Positions 3,121-63,400 of a stretch of DNA of 64,000 bases are shown here, one piece after another. Position 1 is the stretch's first letter. Every line of letters starts with the position of its first letter. The DNA is from Paragorgia papillata. Lineage: Eukaryota; Cnidaria; Anthozoa; Scleralcyonacea; Coralliidae. The notes below the pieces were generated by a model. It did not search any database and was not told the origin of the DNA. It was given only the letters and a program-made list of their open reading frames with translations. Location of the stretch: positions 477,001-541,000 of the forward strand of contig JAWNZC010000353.1 in the NCBI GenBank assembly GCA_035771165.1, given 5' to 3'. Position numbers and translations under genes: made by a program.

Positions 3121-3675
3121 CCCCCTCAGTTGGTAAAAATGTTTTATAAATTCTTTGCATTCCTTTGGCAGCGCGAGCGAAGCGAGGCCGACCGAGCGAA
3201 GCGAGGAAGGCCTTGCTTGGCCAACACCCCCCTGGTTTTACTGGCCGCCATCTTGGATTTCAAAACTGTCCCAGAACCCGCCTTTTTACCTACTATCGTG
3301 AAACACTTTGAAAAATCGCAGAAGTGTATTCGTTTATGTTGGCTCAATTAACCCCGTATTTAACAAAAATAACCATAGAAGACCACTGTAAATATAACTA
3401 AAAGAACATTTACTAACCTTGCGAACAATGATGTCTTTCAATAAAGCGATGATTACGAAGGATTCGAAATGAAAGTTCAGGCTGGAACAAAGCAACTCAA
3501 CGACAACAGAGCGGGAAGGGAAGTAATGTCAGATTCAAACAAAGTCACTATGCTCGCGATGCCAACTGGGAACGAGACACTACGCATGCGCACTGCTACT
3601 AGTACCCAGGCCTCTGACCGATGGCAACTGTCCATTTATCAATTTATCAGCGTTTCAGAGTCTAACCACTGTGGT
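3121..3675. other. No gene seen; GC-rich patch
   Basis: Contains a short repetitive patch around 3169-3208 built from GCGAGCGAAGCGAGG-like units. No frame here has coding character. Confidence 0.5.
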
Positions 3676-3757
3676 CTAACATAACATAACATAACTAACA
3701 TAACATAACATAACATAACATAACATAACATAACATAACATAACATAACATAACATA
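3676..3757. repeat. (ATAAC)n pentanucleotide microsatellite
   Basis: About sixteen near-perfect ATAAC units with one short interruption. Confidence 0.95.
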
Positions 3758-3937
3758 AGAGAGAAACTACCAATAGACGGTCTAGACATGATCGAAAGCA
3801 CTTTAATATTTTACTATATTCCTGATTCATGATGGTATTTTTTGTTTGAAATCATTTGGCAATTTTTTAATATGAGTTAGCGTACCAGTACTGCTTTCTT
3901 CAACTACAGTAGTTCATCGGGGTCCGGGATGAGAAGA

Positions 3938-4012
3938 GGGATTTAGACACAAAAACATGCCACGATATGCGGGTATTTAGCATTGTTTAGTTGTTTGTTG
4001 TGTCTAAATCCC
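3938..4012. repeat. Short foldback with 15 bp arms
   Basis: GGGATTTAGACACAA at 3938-3952 is the exact reverse complement of 3998-4012. Weaker complementarity continues outward (CCGGG near both ends). It is probably a small MITE or its remnant. Confidence 0.75.
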
Positions 4013-4138
4013 GGTCTTCCCCGGGTCTGGGCGTGCGGGGATTCCACTGACTTGTGCATTAATCAACGTCTAATATTTCAAATCAATCTTGCAATAACCG
4101 ATCGAGTTCTGTATTGGAATATCGATCGGCGGTTAGAG

Positions 4139-5361: not shown

Positions 5362-5669
5362 CATAGTTAATAGAAAATATACATGGTTTGGAAACCCGGC
5401 AAACTTCAAAGCGGTCAACAATCAAGCTACAATTCATGTTGAAAGGTACATGAAGGTGCCAAATCCTTTGTTTTAGGTTTATTAATATTTAAACAGTACG
5501 GTTGAGTAATTGAACCCAAACGTTGCTATTGGATGATTGCTTCATTAAACAGAAAACACAATATGTTCAGTAACCGTGAAAGTGAAAAAATTTCCATAAA
5601 CCTGAACAAAAACACAAAATAATGACTTTTGTTTAGCTTCCAAACCATGTATATTTTCTATTAACTATG
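5362..5669. mobile_element. MITE, 308 bp, 31 bp perfect terminal inverted repeats
   Basis: 5362-5392 (beginning CATAGTTAATAGAAAATATA) is the reverse complement of 5639-5669. The interior has no convincing coding frame. A hairpin (ATTAATTGCACTCT with its near-perfect complement, 5682-5713) lies just outside the right end. Confidence 0.8.
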
Positions 5670-21727: not shown

Positions 21728-30361
<8,634 letters not shown>

Positions 30362-51596: not shown

Positions 51597-52308
51597 TAGG
51601 CGACTTGCACTAAGACGTCACGTGATCGGAATTCTTTTAAAATAACTGGTATGGGATTATATTTCTATCAAACGGATAGTGGTGAATAGTTAAGTAAAAT
51701 TTCAAAATTTGCTTTTCAAAATTAAACTTTGTATTGTCTTAGAGAAAATATCCATATTGTAGTTGCTCACTAACTAAAATAAGAAATTCGTACATGTTCA
51801 AAATCTTCTTCAAAAGCAAATTTTACAGTCGAACCTCTAGAAACATGTAGAGAAACGGTTTGATATCCAGCATGCCAATTTTTAGCAGAAACAAATAACG
51901 TTTGGCATGATCAAAACACATTTTGTTTTTGGCCACTATGTTGGATGACACATGAATTTGCCATCCAACAAAGCGACCAAAAGCAAAATACACTTAGATA
52001 CTGTGAAATGTTATAACTCCTGCTAAAACTTGACATGAAGAACATCAAACCTACTCGTTACATGTTTCTTTTAACTGGAGTGCAAAATTTGCTTTTGAAG
52101 ATGATTTTGTACATACATGAAATTTTTATTTTAGTCAAGTAACCAGCTATAATATCATCGTTTTCTCTAAGACAATGGAAGTTTTGAAAATAAAAATTCA
52201 GAAATTTTACTTAAAACACCTTCCTATATCCGTTTTATAGAGTTATAATTCTATACCTGCTATTTTAAAAGGATTGAAACCACATGATCCCTTAGTGCTA
52301 GTCGCCTA
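51597..52308. mobile_element. Long-armed foldback MITE (712 bp)
   Basis: TAGGCGACTTGCACTAAG at the left pairs with CTTAGTGCTAGTCGCCTA at the right. Diverged complementarity extends about 150 bp inward (TTTTAAAATA, AAACGGATA, TTGTCTTAGAGAAAA). Confidence 0.75.
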
Positions 52309-54029: not shown

Positions 54030-54167
54030 TGGAAGTAGTCCTGATTGGCTATTGCAACAAAGGACTCGATTTGATAAGGTTTAATTGGCTAGCGCGCAAA
54101 TCTCTACTTCCTGGTGAGGAACGTGGGCTGTGGGAACGAGATTCCTGTAGTCATTCCAATTAAAAAC
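54030..54167 (+). promoter_or_regulatory. Putative promoter of the RecQ-like gene
   Basis: Two reverse CCAAT boxes (CTGATTGGCTAT near 54042, TTAATTGGCTAG near 54082) lie 85-130 bp before the start codon. Confidence 0.35.
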
Positions 54168-56961
54168 ATGGCAGATCGCTTATCAATAGAGGTATTCGAA
54201 GACGTTCTTGAAAAGGTATTAAATATATTTCAAGTAAAATCTTTAAAACCGGATCAGAAAGAAAGCATTAGACTTTTAGCTGTTGAGCGGCGCGATGTTT
54301 TGGCTGTGTTACCGACTGGTTATGGGAAGAGTATAATTTACCAGGTGATGCCTAAGATTTACGAAGAAGGGTACAAGATGCTTCATGCCGGAGACGAAAA
54401 GAAGTTTTCTGTTATCGTTGTTAGTCCACTAGAGTATATACGGATTCAACAAGTAATCAAATTAAATAGCCTTGGGATTAAATCTGTCTGTCTGGAAGAG
54501 AGTGCAGAGTTGTATATGGCGATATTGAACGGACAATACGAAGTTATTTTCGGAAGTGCTGAACAGTGGTTGTCTTCGAAATGGAAGAAGGTCCTTCAGG
54601 AAGAAAGATTAACAAATATACAAGCCCTGGTTGTAGATGAAGTTCATACGGTTGAATTATGGTGGCGTATTATTAATATTTATGTATATTATAATTCAAC
54701 ATTGTGTGCCTATTTCCACTGAGCTCATTTGTTTGTGTACTATTAGCTGCTTTTGTATTGTATTTTATGTTTCACTGAGAATGATCTGCAGGTGCACAAC
54801 ATTGTTTAAAATTTTGTGATATTTCGCACATTTATTCAAATTTGGCCATAGACCTGTTACAGCCGCCATATTGAAGTGATGACAAGTTGAACCCTGGATT
54901 GGCCAGAGGTATACTTTTAATTTTAAAAAGAGAGATTAGCATCTAGACAGTTGGTCCAAACTTGTCCTCGTTTGTCATCACTCCGAAAAGGTCTAATCGT
55001 ATACGCCATCGCACCATAACTTAATATCTCTTTTTCGAGAATTTTTTTACTATATATTTTGTTGCAATAAATAAAACATTCTTGTTCAACTGTTTTCATC
55101 AATCTTCATTAATTTTGTGGTACAGCGTACCTCACAGTTGAACACATTGACCATCAATGTAGCATTGTTGACCTGTTATTTCTTGTTATAAATTACCGTT
55201 GATTGCATCTAAGGATGGACACTGTTGATAAAAAACATTACCTCAGCCAGCTTCAAACTTCAACGTTTCCCAGGAGCATTTGACAGGGTTTCTTTTAGCT
55301 CAACCAATCACGTTTAACCAGTCTCGAGGTGATTGGTTGAACTAAAAGAAACCTGTCAAATGCTCGTGGGAAACGTTGAAGTTTGATGCTGGTGGAGGTA
55401 ATGTTTTTTATCAACTGTGTCCATCCTTAGATGCAATCGACGGTATTTGGAATCATGCACTTCACCTTAAAGTTTATTTACTGTAAGTTAAGCAATTTCA
55501 TTTTTGTTGTAGGTATTCAAAAACAAATAATTAAATACCATTATTTTTAGCGTGGGTTCACCTCTGGTGTACTGTATACATGTATAAATGAAAGTTATTC
55601 AAAGCTTGTAAGCTATCTTTAAAAATATGGGGTTTTTTCTCATTCTTTCTTATTTATTGTTTTGTAGGGGAACTGGCAAGAAAGGAAGAGTTGCTTTCCG
55701 GGAAGCTTTTGGTCGAGTTGCTGAATTGAGGTCATATATTCCTAAAGGAACACCTGTCCAGGTCTCACTGCTACGGCTAGCAGGGAAATGAGACAAAGGC
55801 TAATTAAATTTCTTGGTATGCGAGAAGGAAGAACAATTACAGTTAGCCCAAACAAAAACAATATCAGATTTACTTTCCTTAAATCACGACCAAATCTAGA
55901 TTGTTTCAACTGGCTAGTAACATTAATTCTTCAGGAGAAAGAAAGAACACCATTCACAATAATTTTCTGCCAAACTGTGAATGACATTGTTGCTGTGTTA
56001 AGCTACCTTCTTGAGAAACTTGGAACATCTGGCATTTATGTCAATGGAGATACACCACCAAATGAGCGCTGTCTAATTGGAGTTTATTACTCACAAACAC
56101 CTAAAGATGACAAGGAGATAATTACCAAGTCTTTTGAAGGTAATGGAAATGTTCGAGTTGTCATTGCATCATCATCACTGAGTATGGGAGTAGACTTTCC
56201 TTGTGTAACTTATGTGATTCACTTTGGACCTTCCAGAAACCTAAGTGGACATTTGCAAGAGGCAGGTCGTGGTGGGAGAGATGGGTCACAGTCATACAAT
56301 GTGACTGTTTTTCTTCCAAAGCATCTAGTTCATTGTGACAAGCAAGTTAAATCTGCTGTTAGAAATGGGCTAAATTCTTGTGCCAGAATGGCTTTAATAA
56401 GTTCTTTTGATGAAAATATCAAGTCTGTTGAACCATTGCACAATTGTTGTAGCTTTTGCCATCGACAATGCAAATGCAGTGTCGATGACAATTGTACAGT
56501 ACCTGTACCTTTATTTGATAAACTACCTGAACCTCAAGAATCAGATGGTCGTCACTGCCGCACTGTGAATATGAATGACAGAACATGTGTTAGAGAGGCA
56601 TTGAGAGAGTTACAGGTGTCCTTATCATTCCAATCGAATCTGTCTGTACTGGGTTCATCTGGTGGAACATATGAACTCTCTAACAGCTGTATTGAGGAAA
56701 TCATGGAAAATGTGGAAAAAATTTGCACCATATCAGATGTGCTGATTTATTGCCCAACAGCAACATACAGTGATAATACTTGAAGTGTTGCATGAAATTT
56801 TTGGAGACATACACATTTCTGATGAAACTTATCATATTTCCACTATGTGTCCATTTGTTGGTACAGTTGAAGAGTCTCCTTCATGTGCTTATTTACAAAA
56901 TGACTCATTTTATGAAAACAACCCCCCATCTGACTATTCCAGTGATGAACTTCCAGAATAA
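54168..56961 (+). pseudogene. RecQ-like DNA helicase, two exons, two frameshifts
   Basis: Exon 1 is 54168-54661, exon 2 is 55668-56961; joining ATTATG with GGGAACTGG restores DEVHTVELWGTGKKGRVAF. The donor GTGGCG is weak; the acceptor TTTTGTAG is good. Motifs: LKPDQKESIRLL (Q-like), AVLPTGYGKSIIYQ (Walker A), VVSPL, LVVDEVHTV (Walker B, DEVH), TATASREMRQ, IIFCQTVNDI, GNVRVVIASSSLSMGVDFP, HFGPSR and LQEAGRGGRDG, then a Cys cluster CCSFCHRQCKC. These are RecQ motifs for a 3'-5' helicase. One base is lost near 55757-55766 within motif III, and another shift near 56770 separates the last 60 residues (VLHEIFGDIHISDET, stop 56959-56961). AATAAA follows at 57141. RQC and HRDC domains appear absent. 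The start is the Met in AACATGG; an upstream in-frame Met at 54114 is possible. Confidence 0.75.
55192..55449. mobile_element. Foldback MITE in the RecQ intron
   Basis: Left TTGATTGCATCTAAGGATGG pairs with CCATCCTTAGATGCAATCGA on the right; arms extend through GATAAAAAACATTACCTC and TTTGACAGG..CCTGTCAAA to a short centre. Confidence 0.9.
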
Positions 56962-57439: not shown

Positions 57440-59509
57440 TCAATGTACTGGTGATTCATAAATGCCTTTCCATGTTTTGATTTTGTCTCTTGCCCAGAAG
57501 AAGAATGTTCTAAAGTCAACACTTATTGTATCAATTTCAAAGTCTTTAAACGAAACATATCCTTCTCTATTTGAGTTGTTTTTGAAAACATTGCCTTGAA
57601 TCAAATCATTAACAATAGTTTGAACTGTTGTTTCAGGAGTGTTAGTGCCATGATAGCCACTTCGTTTGTTCTTACCACAGTCAGAGTAAATTCCTTTCAT
57701 AATTTCTTCCATTGGATGAATTGATTGTGCACATCTTTGAAGAGTACTCTTAGTAATATTCCCCCCAGCTCCTTTTAGAATTCTTTTTAAAACCAGGTTG
57801 AGATGTTCCATGTGCAGGTCTAAAGGTATATTGTTCCCTAATCCACCTTTAGTGTTAATGAATCGGTTTGATACCAGTAAATATGCCTCTTTTTCTGACA
57901 AGATGGCTTGAATTTTGGCAAAGAAACATAAAATCATGTAGGCATATTTTGTATGTTTATGCTTGTATACCAGTAGGAGGGCAAACTTCATACAACGTAA
58001 GAAACGTTGACAGTCACCATGTTTAATTGCATCAGAGAGGTTGAAGAAAAAAAGACCAAGCTGCAGTCTGGAGCTGTGGTAGTTATAAATTGAGTCTTTC
58101 TTTGTTGTAACTGTATCATGGCCTGTCTCCTTTTGTGCACCACAAACGTGAGCAGGAATATCACTATGTGTCTTTGTGTGCCTGTTTCATAATATAAAAC
58201 ATATATACAACATTAGGCAAGAATTAAATTATCCAAAACTCCATCTTGTAATTTACAGTAATCAGGCTCATATGTAAACAATGGAAGAGAGATCTTGAGC
58301 AAAATAATTGATACTTCAAATACAGTTAATGTTCTAATATCATGTTGACTATCTTGCATTCATCATTTGATTATCATGCAAGTAATATCACTTTATGCAA
58401 TTCAGTCAAAATCTGATAATAACATGTTAACTGTCTGGCATATTCTAAATTCAGGATCTCAAGCAGATTATATTTAATCTATACCTGTTTCTTGTAGTAC
58501 TTGTTGTAAACACCAGACCACAGCCAAGAATGGGACATTTATAGTAGCCAAATGAATCTCTGTCTAAATCACCACCATAATTAATCAGTAGCCCATGTTT
58601 TGTTTTTTCATGCCTGTAAATATAATTATTAATAATGGTTACATTTTACGTATTAAAAGCATGACACAGAAACATTTGCATCAGTTTAATTATACTGGTA
58701 TTTTAATGGATGTCCCAGTTAACCTGTTGTACATTGGCAGTTAACATGTTGTTTTTAATTTTTTTTCTTTTCTGTAATGAGATCCTTTTAAATCACTTGA
58801 AACTTTTCAAATACATATAAATTGAAGGCAGGGCTCGAAATTCTTTTTTTTTTCCAAGGCCAAATGTGTCATTCGTTATGACAGGTTCTTATCTGCATTA
58901 AAATAAAGGAGTTGGGTTTTTTTTAAATCCAAGACCAAAATACATGAAAACACTATTGTAAATTATTGACAGGTAATTTAGTCATTATCAATAATGCATC
59001 ATCTGCCAAATATGGCTGGTGATGGTATGTTTTACGATGCAATTGAAAGACACACAGTGACTAAAATGAACAATATGTTGGTGATGGCTGCCATGAATTT
59101 CATGCATGGAAAGCATTCCAAAATCAGGTCGAAGTAACTAAATTAAAGTACATTGCAACAGTACCTAAACCATGCTATAAATTTATTTTTTCAGTACAGT
59201 TACATTAATTACTTCACTGAAAAAAATATTTGAACATTCCCTTTTCATTTAATATACCTTACTCTTGTTGAATGTAGGGGGAAAGTACTATTACATCCTT
59301 CATGCTGACAGACAAAACCTTTTCTGGTCTGCTCATCAAGTTGGACAATGCAATCAGGAATTTCTGACTTTTGGAATACTTCCTTTACAAAAGCTGTTGC
59401 CTGACTGTGAATCCATTCACCCTTATGTTTTGAATCCCAGTCTTTTGACTCATGAGGAACTGGAATTATGTTTGGTGTGTCTGTGAAAAAAAAAAATAAA
59501 AAAAAATAA

Positions 59510-59554
<45 letters not shown>

Positions 59555-60308
59555 ACGCTCACTACCCTTGTGGAAGTTTGAGCACTCTGGGCCCATGCGC
59601 ACTTCACGCTATCTGAATGTACTTCACCGAAGCTGTCCCACATGCGGTTGTCACCGACGATCGCATGTGTATAAGTAATTGATGAAATTCATTCAGATTG
59701 TTCCAAGCTACACTGATGAGCTGTTGTACAGCGAAACACCGTGTCTGTAGATTGAACTATGTACGCTCCTTCACTTCGGTGTTGTTGAGCACTCTGTGAA
59801 GTTGCCGTGGGTACTTATTAGCGATAATGCAACGCTCACTACCCTTGTGGAAGTTTGAGCACTCTGGGCCCATGCGCACTTCACGCTATCTGAATGTACT
59901 TCACCGAAGCTGTCCCACATGCGGTTGTCACCGACGATCGCATGTGTATAAGTAATTGATGAAATTCATTCAGATTGTTCCAAGCTACACTGATGAGCTG
60001 TTGTACAGCGAAACACCGTGTCTGTAGATTGAACTATGTACGCTCCTTCACTTCGGTGTTGTTGAGCACTCTGTGAAGTTGCCGTGGGTACTTATTAGCG
60101 ATAATGCAACGCTCACTACCCTTGTGGAAGTTTGAGCACTCTGGGCCCATGCGCACTTCACGCTATCTGAATGTACTTCACCGAAGCTGTCCCACATGCG
60201 GTTGTCACCGACGATCGCATGTGTATAAGTAATTGATGAAATTCATTCAGATTGTTCCAAGCTACACTGATGAGCTGTTGTACAGCGAAACACCGTGTCT
60301 GTAGATTG

Positions 60309-60376
<68 letters not shown>

Positions 60377-60477: not shown

Positions 60478-63400
60478 ATTATTATTATTTAAATTTATTT
60501 AAATAATAATAATTCCATGTAATGGACATTACTCCAAAAAACATAAATTTCCTCTCAATAACTGTGATTATCACAAAACACAAAATGTGAATCTAGATAT
60601 ATGTCATTCTAATAAACTACTACATTTTTGTGAACGTTCAAATGTTTTCATAATAAAGTCCCAATTTCTGCATAACAGACATATTTACACATCAGTGGTA
60701 ATGGACATTAGACTTTTGTCCCAAGCTGATTGCTTATTGTGGACCAGTCAGAAAATTATACAGTTTCAGTAAAGGGATAGAAAGGTATGTATTAATCTGT
60801 TACACTATTTCAAATATAGAATAACACAATTTCCCTGTCGTTTTTAAGTGGAGACTAATGAGAACTGGTAACCCCAACATAAAAGAATGTTGTTACAAAT
60901 TTGATGAGATACAAGCTATATTTCAGTAAAGATGAAGGGGTTGACCTATAATAACTTGCTTTAATACCAACCCTTTAACTGCCATGGTGGTATTTTATAA
61001 TTTTATTTTTAAGTTAACACCATGCGAGTTTAGATGTTCAAGGAAAACTTCTGGGAATTAATAGATATTTCCAGAAAATTTAGGTTTTAAGGATATAATT
61101 TTCTTATATTGTAAAGATAATAAAATACTTCATAAAATCAATGTGGATTGCACTTAAGCATGGAATTACCCTAAATTAATACCTGCATTGTAACAATATG
61201 TATGTCTGTCTCAGTCTGTCTGTATGCCTGTATCCAATGTATGTCTGTTTGTTTGTCTGTCTGTCTGCCTATCTGTAAATAACAATTTATGTTACAAAAT
61301 TATAAACCACAAGCACTATATACCAGTATTACCTTCAAGACTAGTCATTCCCGAAAATGCCATCCACCTTGCCAGAATATGAGCTTCAGTTTCCCTGTCC
61401 ATGAATTCTTTGAAGGCATTGTCGTCTTTATCGGGACCCTTTTTTGCATTGGATTTCCGTGTTCTATTCATGGATGCACACATAGTTCCTATTTGTGAAG
61501 CAGAATCCTCTTTGTAAAATAAATCATAGCAAATCTAAACATAAATAATAATGAGTTATGTACATTACATACAGTGATACATAAATGATTACATATTGCT
61601 CTGATTGGATTTGCCTCATTTTTCATCAGTACCAAGACACAAATGACAATGTCATCATTTTCATTTTGTATTAGAGTTATACGGATGATATCAAGAGATG
61701 AAGAGAATATGTTATGTGCATGTTATAATTACTTTCACCACACATCAGTGCTGATATAGAGTGTTATCATATATATTGTAAAATATATTTTACCTCATAT
61801 AAATTCTTTTTTAGGTGCCAGTCTCCAAACGAGGTCTCTAAACCATTCAGCCTATCAATCTCATTATCTGAAAGAACACTTGCATACTGGGTATTCCGGG
61901 CTCGTTCCTTTGTGAGTTGGTCACCATCAAACACAATCTTATCAGTTGCTTTCAACTTTCCATTCACTTCCTGTATAACTGGAACATATTTCTCTTGAAT
62001 GTTTTTCATTATTTGGGCCATGTCAGAAGCTTTGTTTGAGTTGTAGAATTCTAATCCTAAAGGGTACTAAAGAAAAATATAATTCAAACTATATTTGAAT
62101 TTTGCTAATACGTATAGTTGAATTAATTTATATAATAAAATACTGAATGCAGTAGCAATTAATAATTGATAATCATGATGATTATTACTGCTATTATTTA
62201 CAGTATTATCGATATGGAATTTAAATCATCAGAAAACAATCCAGTACTGAATTATATCAATATGATGTATATATAGCACTTGACACACACCAATTAATTA
62301 CATTGTCCCAAAACGGTGTTAGCGGTGTTATTAAATAATACAAAAATGTGAAGAAGGCCCAGTGTAAGATTATAGCTTTGCTAAACTGGGGTAAATCCTT
62401 CTTAACTTCTTTAAATAAAGTCTATTATTATTAGTAGTAAAATGTGTTAAATACTTAATTTAATATATTCACTCATAATGTAATTTTGCCTATTGAACGT
62501 TGTTATTTCATATTGACTCCTACAAAGTAACATTGTATGAGTTAATAATCATGTATTAAATTGAAACAGTTAGGGTATTAAGTATACTCTTTCACACTGG
62601 TCGCTGGGTCAGCTGTCCATGAAAATTGATCATTGGTTATAATTTTTTTTCAGAATTTATTCAATGCAAATCAAAATTTGCATGATAACATATTTTTTCA
62701 ATTTCGAAAAAATTGTATGTTTTTTGTTTTTCAAATTTAATGAATTTTGGCGGGAAAATGACATCACAAATTAACTGACAAAAACGTTTTTTATTTTATG
62801 AGAAAATTGATGAATGCATTTGGAATAACATGTTAAGGCAAATATAAAACTGAAAAGACAACTGAAATACTTTAAATCGTCCAAAAGATATTGAACTTTG
62901 AAATTTGAATATTCTGCCATTTTGTTACTATTTTTAGAAAATATGTAAATTTCAAAGTTCAATATCTTTTGAACGATTTAAATTATTCAAAAATCTTTTC
63001 AGTTTTAAAGTTGCCTTAACAAGTTTTTCCAAAAACAACTATCAATTTTTTCGAAAAACGAAAAAACAATTTTCTCCTTTAATTTGTGACGTTATTTTCC
63101 CGCCAAAATCCGTTAAATTGAAAAACAAAAACATACGATTTATGGAAATTGAAAAATATGTTATCATGCAAATTTTGCAATAAATTCTGAAAAAAGGTTA
63201 TACGGACAGCTGACCCGGCGTGATTTAGCATTTTCATTTATATCAAAATTGTCTGACATTGTTTAAAGCAGAGTACACTATCTGGCCGCTTTATCTAGCC
63301 TGTGAAAAACATAAATGGACCAGTCATAGATTAAATTTTAAATGTAAACATGAATTAAAATATAACCCAAGAATAGTGATTGTTCTCATTTGTTAAATAA

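Follow-up and report, generated by a model that had tools for sequence, protein, structure and literature searches.

A probable non-LTR retrozyme with a (TA)n-anchored 3' end in the anthozoan Paragorgia papillata

A short tandem array flanked by (TA)n runs, each unit of which ends in a predicted hammerhead ribozyme, lies within 64,000 nucleotides of the Paragorgia papillata genome, and this whole stretch is referred to here as the window. The locus raises the question of what kind of element the array represents and how its copies reached their sites. An earlier note had interpreted it as a retrozyme, i.e. type I hammerheads in 277-bp tandem units. That interpretation is supported: in its hammerhead type, tandem 277-bp units, dispersed copies and insertion signature, the element fits metazoan non-LTR retrozymes. 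The element is, with good probability, a non-autonomous metazoan non-LTR retrozyme with a (TA)n-anchored 3' end, moved by the mechanism proposed below.

The array and its ribozyme

The array occupies positions 59550-60310 and is composed of 196+277+277+11 bp of one 277-bp unit, as defined by an exact self-match at shift 277. It thus amounts to 2.75 units, with a (TA)n run on both sides. Unit positions are numbered from u1, the first base after the predicted hammerhead cut. The left (TA)n microsatellite, the presumed target site, spans 59506-59551 by tandem repeat call and sequence, and its last two bases (AT) are common to the unit. It is followed on the plus strand by a first unit that is 5'-truncated (u82-u277, 59550-59745) and ends at the first predicted cleavage site, a full unit (u1-u277, 59746-60022) corresponding to a predicted 277-nt RNA monomer or circle, a further full unit (60023-60299) and a 3' terminal stub of u1-u11 (60300-60310), the last recognized by the self-match and by comparison with other copies. 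Most other copies have u1-u12 (TGTAGATTGAAC) before (TA)n. The right (TA)n microsatellite, at the fixed 3' junction, covers 60311-60375 by the same two kinds of evidence as the left. There are zero mismatches across the entire self-overlap and the two full units are 100% identical, as the earlier note had stated; the array that it placed at 59551-60311 is real, with both ends shifted by one base. Its description of about 2.7 units bounded by hammerheads holds at the right end, where the third unit stops past its ribozyme, but not at the left end, which starts inside the unit at u82 and has no bounding hammerhead.

Three type I hammerhead ribozymes are found on the plus strand at the exact 277-bp spacing that had been claimed. 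They lie at 59700-59757 (descriptor and fold), 59977-60034 (core motif and descriptor) and 60254-60311 (core motif, descriptor and sequence), with predicted cleavage after 59745, 60022 and 60299, respectively. The core CTGATGA-stem II-GAAA-stem III-GTC occupies 59713-59745, 59990-60022 and 60267-60299. A descriptor comprising the hammerhead core with stems I (5 bp), II (5 bp) and III (3 bp) matches only these three places on both strands of the 64 kb and nothing in 300 dinucleotide shuffles of it, which rules out a chance hammerhead. Stem I consists of CUACA/UGUAG, an internal loop CAAG/AUU and then GUUC/GAAC, stem II of GCUGU/ACAGC with loop UGU, and stem III of ACA/UGU with loop CCG; the internal loop CAAG/AUU and the loop UGU are both present in the retrozyme hammerhead. 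Cleavage is expected after the GUC. A stem I with internal loop had been reported for all three ribozymes; it is complete in two, and the third lacks the distal pair, base 60311 being A instead of C. Stem I had also been called compensating, yet it is merely complementary, as two-sided compensatory pair changes are absent among 335 aligned units and part-units. Stem III is weak and nearly self-complementary, and two copies pair at -7.4 kcal/mol, which suggests by analogy that the ribozyme may act between neighbouring units. Such action between neighbouring units is described for amphibian retrozymes (PMC7229834).

The earlier note had held that the lack of a covariance-model hit would refute its interpretation. 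No Rfam hammerhead family matches at gathering score, and a permissive search of 1.9 kb lists no hammerhead at E<=5. With an 81-base slice, the best match is Hammerhead_HH9 (RF02275) at 18.3 of 52 bits (E 0.014), and RAGATH-1-hammerhead reaches 11.6 bits (E 8.5). This negative result remains evidence against the ribozyme; more weight is given to the core being intact, to the stems and to the low variation described below for the ribozyme region. The motif was not found in viral and prokaryote collections (one phage match, E 0.06), and the descriptor finds no other hammerhead families in the 292 kb scanned. The circular fold of the unit has a free energy of -87.4 kcal/mol vs a shuffle mean of -69.2 (sd 4.6), with 0/200 shuffles as low, and 67% of the bases of the folded circle are paired. 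Stem II forms in the folded circle and stem I is rare (pair probability about 0.007). Structures compatible with the ribozyme lie 4.3-5.4 kcal/mol above the circle minimum; the folding program does not draw stem III in them. Nearest-neighbour folding thus does not favour the ribozyme, and an isolated 76-mer folds no better than shuffles.

The unit has a GC content of 46.9% and its longest open runs on the circle are 51 and 64 codons on the two strands. An origin from tRNA or another Pol III gene was considered and rejected, as the window contains no tRNA and the best box B match deviates from the strict form at 4 positions and from a relaxed form at 2; box A matches with 1 mismatch do occur.

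Other repeats and genes are present in the window. Direct repeats of 1.6 kb at 24134-25726 and 28779-30361 are 99.1% identical, each with a short-unit minisatellite, and flank most of a reverse-transcriptase ORF (25690-28644); the arrangement resembles a pair of neighbouring copies of a single retroelement tail. At 54093-56783 and 57440-58186, ORFs with DEAD and Helicase_C domains accompany an opposite-strand DUF6589 ORF that has 35 relatives and is about 1.4 kb from the retrozyme array, and an SRCR domain is also among the array's neighbours. Palindromic segments at 51597-52308, 55191-55448 and 62638-63202 match their own reverse complement at 72-89% and resemble fold-back or MITE-type repeats.

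Copies in the genome and their ends

The genome comprises 618 Mb in 473 contigs, and the search for further 277-bp units proposed in the earlier note returned at least 106 matches, spread over 31 contigs; this is a minimum, as 39 of 49 candidates were scored. An assembly error, which had been named as a possible refutation, is unlikely because the unit recurs at many places with different flanks. The family was sampled in 35 stretches (20 + 15) around matches and with ten probes, five of which proved to be filled with the unit and five without it. It consists of short dispersed copies and long satellite arrays. Short arrays mostly have 1-4 units, with 13 in L021. Four 9.9-kb loci are at least 99% unit, as are the stretches from contigs C312 and C51, and the share in other long arrays is 95% (L010 of C88), 92% (L013 of C372) and 71% (L020 of C452). 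The C312 and C51 arrays contain inverted segments; identical head-to-head inversions in L023, L024 and L027 could be haplotypes or a duplicated assembly piece. The C88 array is interrupted in L010 by two inserts (3610-4088 and 5483-5543) with borders GCTTAAGC and about 6-9 unit bases (from u71) duplicated, probably a transposon inside the satellite.

The 58-nt hammerhead departs from the window unit at 0.57% of positions (100/17,641), compared with 3.16% elsewhere (2,082/65,791), counting gaps over 335 units and part-units that include satellites and are not independent. Among the 277 circular 58-nt windows, 11 are as low as the hammerhead, which starts at u232, and the five lowest start at u225-u235. 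Reference-free diversity among 30 dispersed representatives is 1.7% in the hammerhead vs 3.0%, with 29/277 windows as low and the lowest at u231. The low variation around the ribozyme suggests that cutting matters. The 13 catalytic positions are no less variable than the hammerhead overall (26/4,035, 0.64%), and the last A of CTGATGA departs in 11/313 units.

The 3' end is fixed in most of the copies examined, 12-15 nt past the hammerhead cleavage site and at (TA)n. Among 33 arrays with a match reaching u277, 28 continue exactly with TGTAGATTGAACTAT, followed by ATA and TA repeats. The five L039-L043 rows go back to a single insertion that was duplicated along with its host repeat, and L029 minus is a second copy of L025 minus, so that 28 independent events remain once copies are removed, of which 23 are exact at the 3' end. 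Only a short TA run follows in L035 minus, L038 plus and L038 minus. Inexact ends that still proceed to TA are those of the window (one change, C12 to A), L036 (one) and L019 (two); L037 has two irregular 3' ends. Outside the 33, L033 has the identical 3' end after a small difference, L015 minus and L025 plus end beside TA at u215 and u238, and L031 and L013 end without TA at u264 and u274 (then TGTAGA). The remaining satellite stretches are bounded by the extracted stretch or end inside other sequence. Annealing to (TA)n as the sole determinant of the 3' site was dropped, as u197-205 would pair better than u13-18.

The 5' ends are variable, ranging over 29 events from u3 to u217. This count leaves out the satellite loci (L010, L011, L013, L020, L023, L024, L026, L027), the copies L029 and L040-L043, L016 plus, which has more unit upstream, and L037 minus. 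The ends cluster, with 15/29 in one 36-nt arc, a concentration reached by 0/20,000 uniform draws. Only one of the 29 falls within u1-u5, the position expected from run-off at a cut end.

A single empty site, paralogous rather than allelic, is available for comparison. The host repeat of L039-L043 has a paralogous copy in L034, in which CCACTG(TA)n is uninterrupted. The empty site reads CCACCACACCACTG(TA)n; in the filled site CCACCACGCCA is joined to u90 (CTCACTACC) and the right side reads GAAC(TA)n. Only CT is shared at the 5' joint, possibly by chance. There is no target duplication at this one resolved insertion, and (TA)n hides duplications elsewhere. The (TA)n is present in L034 without the insert, and the TA run therefore belongs to the target. 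By its signature of a fixed 3' end, variable 5' ends and one paralogous empty site, the unit appears to have been retrotransposed. The same loci (L034 1240-1850 and L039-L043) contain a repeat with ends CAGTGGCGTGGTGGCA that itself sits in (TA)n runs, so that two mobile elements share a target; in L034, retrozymes landed at both ends of this repeat.

Template, enzyme and alternative explanations

If the copies are reverse-transcribed, a cut linear monomer is excluded as their template because, with a 3' end 12-15 nt past the cut, it would yield no more than 15 nt of cDNA. Since the anchored copies extend across the cut site, their template would be circular or uncut. Cut multimers are argued against by the scarcity of 5' ends at u1. 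Agreement between units was considered as proof of a circle. Units within short arrays agree at 212/226 vs a random expectation of 163.9; satellite neighbours agree as well (92-98%), so that this measure cannot tell a circle from an uncut transcript, and multi-lap copies fit a circle and an uncut multimer alike. A circular template is judged to be a balanced proposition. In the mechanism proposed, a transcript of tandem units would be cut by its own hammerheads, probably aided by stem III pairing between neighbouring units, and the 277-nt monomers would be ligated into circles. A reverse transcriptase, most likely from a Penelope-like element, would nick a (TA)n microsatellite, and the TA end would prime cDNA synthesis at an internal position of the circle, shortly after the hammerhead. 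The enzyme would run 0.4 to several laps of the circle and the 5' end would be joined last, resulting in arrays such as that of the window.

Penelope-like elements have been proposed as strong candidate movers of animal retrozymes on the grounds of co-occurrence, tandem copies and a common ribozyme type (PMC7229834). Their enzymes are described as cutting AT-rich DNA and as initiating at an internal site beyond their own hammerhead (PMC11167929), and rotifer Penelope elements have target duplications of 8-10 bp (PMC3846280). In the P. papillata genome, GIY-YIG matches number at least 104 (150/540 candidates scored), and not all of them need be Penelope-like. Six loci (L054-L059) were chosen for examination by score or long open frame. 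By Pfam, L054 has reverse transcriptase and GIY-YIG domains in one ORF, and in L055 and L056-L059 GIY-YIG is the sole domain identified. Four of the six loci (L054, L056, L057, L059) have, 3' of the ORF, a minimal hammerhead that lacks a true stem III; in L055 and L058 none was found there. The 21.2 kb of these loci contain 5 hammerheads, one being that of the retrozyme in L054, vs a shuffle mean of 0.007 and a largest value of 1. In L057, (TA)n begins at the 59th base past the hammerhead cut.

L054 is flanked by retrozyme sequence, u62-229 at 97.0% on one side and u217-277 at 98.4% on the other. Ten bases, TTCATTCAGA, were read by eye as identical on both sides of the Penelope-like element; the scripted check printed none. 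The locus is read here as a retrozyme copy into which a Penelope-like element, truncated at its 5' end, has inserted. The alternative that the element in L054 itself ends in the retrozyme ribozyme was considered and dropped in view of the left retrozyme piece and the duplicated bases. For the two families, these sequences show co-existence and a common ribozyme type, not mobilisation. That a Penelope-like element supplies the enzyme is about as probable as that it does not. Somewhat more tentative is the fuller proposal, in which a Penelope-like enzyme would start at one internal site 12-15 nt past the cut, on TA primers, and roll round the circle to produce tandem arrays that seed satellite DNA; the 3' end would then be a recognition site functionally shared by retrozymes and Penelope-like elements.

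The main competitor to a circular template is an uncut linear read-through RNA of the tandem array, with a 3' end or an internal start at u12-15 and a hammerhead without a role in insertion, as in the Anolis Penelope-like element. In that system, hammerhead mutants left insertion unaffected and reverse transcription began within the RNA, beyond the hammerhead cut (PMC11167929), and the equal agreement of satellite neighbours and short-array units speaks for the same alternative. The ribozyme region is nonetheless the least variable part of the unit, suggesting that cutting matters, and the published relatives are described to accumulate as circles (PMC7229834). An uncut template is a serious possibility, though rather doubtful on balance.

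The other alternatives are considerably weaker. The (TA)n could be a tail that arose together with the element, in the manner of some SINEs, and was copied from an RNA ending in (UA)n. TA repeats are indeed found on nearly all 33 tabulated 3' ends, and several 5' flanks are without them. However, many copies, including that of the window, have (TA)n on both sides, the empty site has it without an insert and the hammerhead cut would remove such a tail, so that this explanation is improbable. It is slightly less probable still that the unit is plain satellite DNA spread via unequal crossing-over and rolling-circle DNA, with the hammerhead as a passenger. Long arrays with inversions exist and the four 9.9-kb loci consist almost wholly of the unit; satellite growth accounts for these long arrays but not for the dispersed copies, whose fixed 3' end and variable 5' ends at unlinked sites are a signature of reverse transcription. 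A similarly slight chance is given to the unit being a pseudo-LTR of a Penelope-like element left without its coding part. In its favour, retrozyme sequence lies on both sides of the Penelope-like ORF in L054. The locus instead reads as an insertion into a retrozyme copy, with the same ten bases on both sides and its own, different minimal hammerhead, and a descriptor scan does not match the retrozyme ribozyme at the other five GIY-YIG loci. No Penelope-like copy flanked by the unit was seen beyond L054 in 6 of at least 104 places.

Relation to known retrozymes and Penelope-like elements

The non-LTR retrozyme of P. papillata resembles the published account of metazoan non-LTR retrozymes in its type I hammerhead with a full core, tandem units (about 170-400 bp in that account) in dimers to long multimers, GC content under 50%, absence of an ORF and highly self-paired predicted RNA (PMC7229834). 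It differs from them in its fixed 3' end and (TA)n target, which are absent from their description in the part of that account drawn on here (PMC7229834). Target duplications of metazoan retrozymes are given as >4 bp when present (PMC7229834), and as 15 bp for the Nematostella retrozyme (PMC4918200), whereas none occurs at the one resolved insertion here. Plant LTR retrozymes are likewise non-coding and contain hammerheads, and theirs have circular RNA intermediates; they differ in having type III hammerheads, LTRs, RNAs of 600-800 nt and 4-bp target duplications (PMC4918200). The hammerhead of the present unit is not of type III, its stem I being the open-ended stem. Penelope-like elements share with the unit a start of reverse transcription internally past the hammerhead cut, AT-rich targets and partial tandems (PMC11167929; PMC3846280). 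Unlike the unit, with open runs of at most 64 codons, they code for reverse transcriptase and GIY-YIG in these accounts (PMC11167929; PMC3846280). Their hammerhead is described as being without a real stem III, whereas in that of the unit stem III is present and stem I contains an internal loop.

A (TA)n-targeted or 3'-anchored retrozyme was not found in the literature searched, a scope that lies outside subscription journals, supplements and repeat databases. The 3' anchor at (TA)n is thus the new feature here, and the rule may be general but undocumented. The anchored copies crossing the cleavage site speak against a cut linear monomer as the template of such elements. Because the 3' end is fixed close to the ribozyme, the target is defined and an empty site is known, insertion of this retrozyme becomes testable in vitro with one RNA, one DNA primer and one enzyme.
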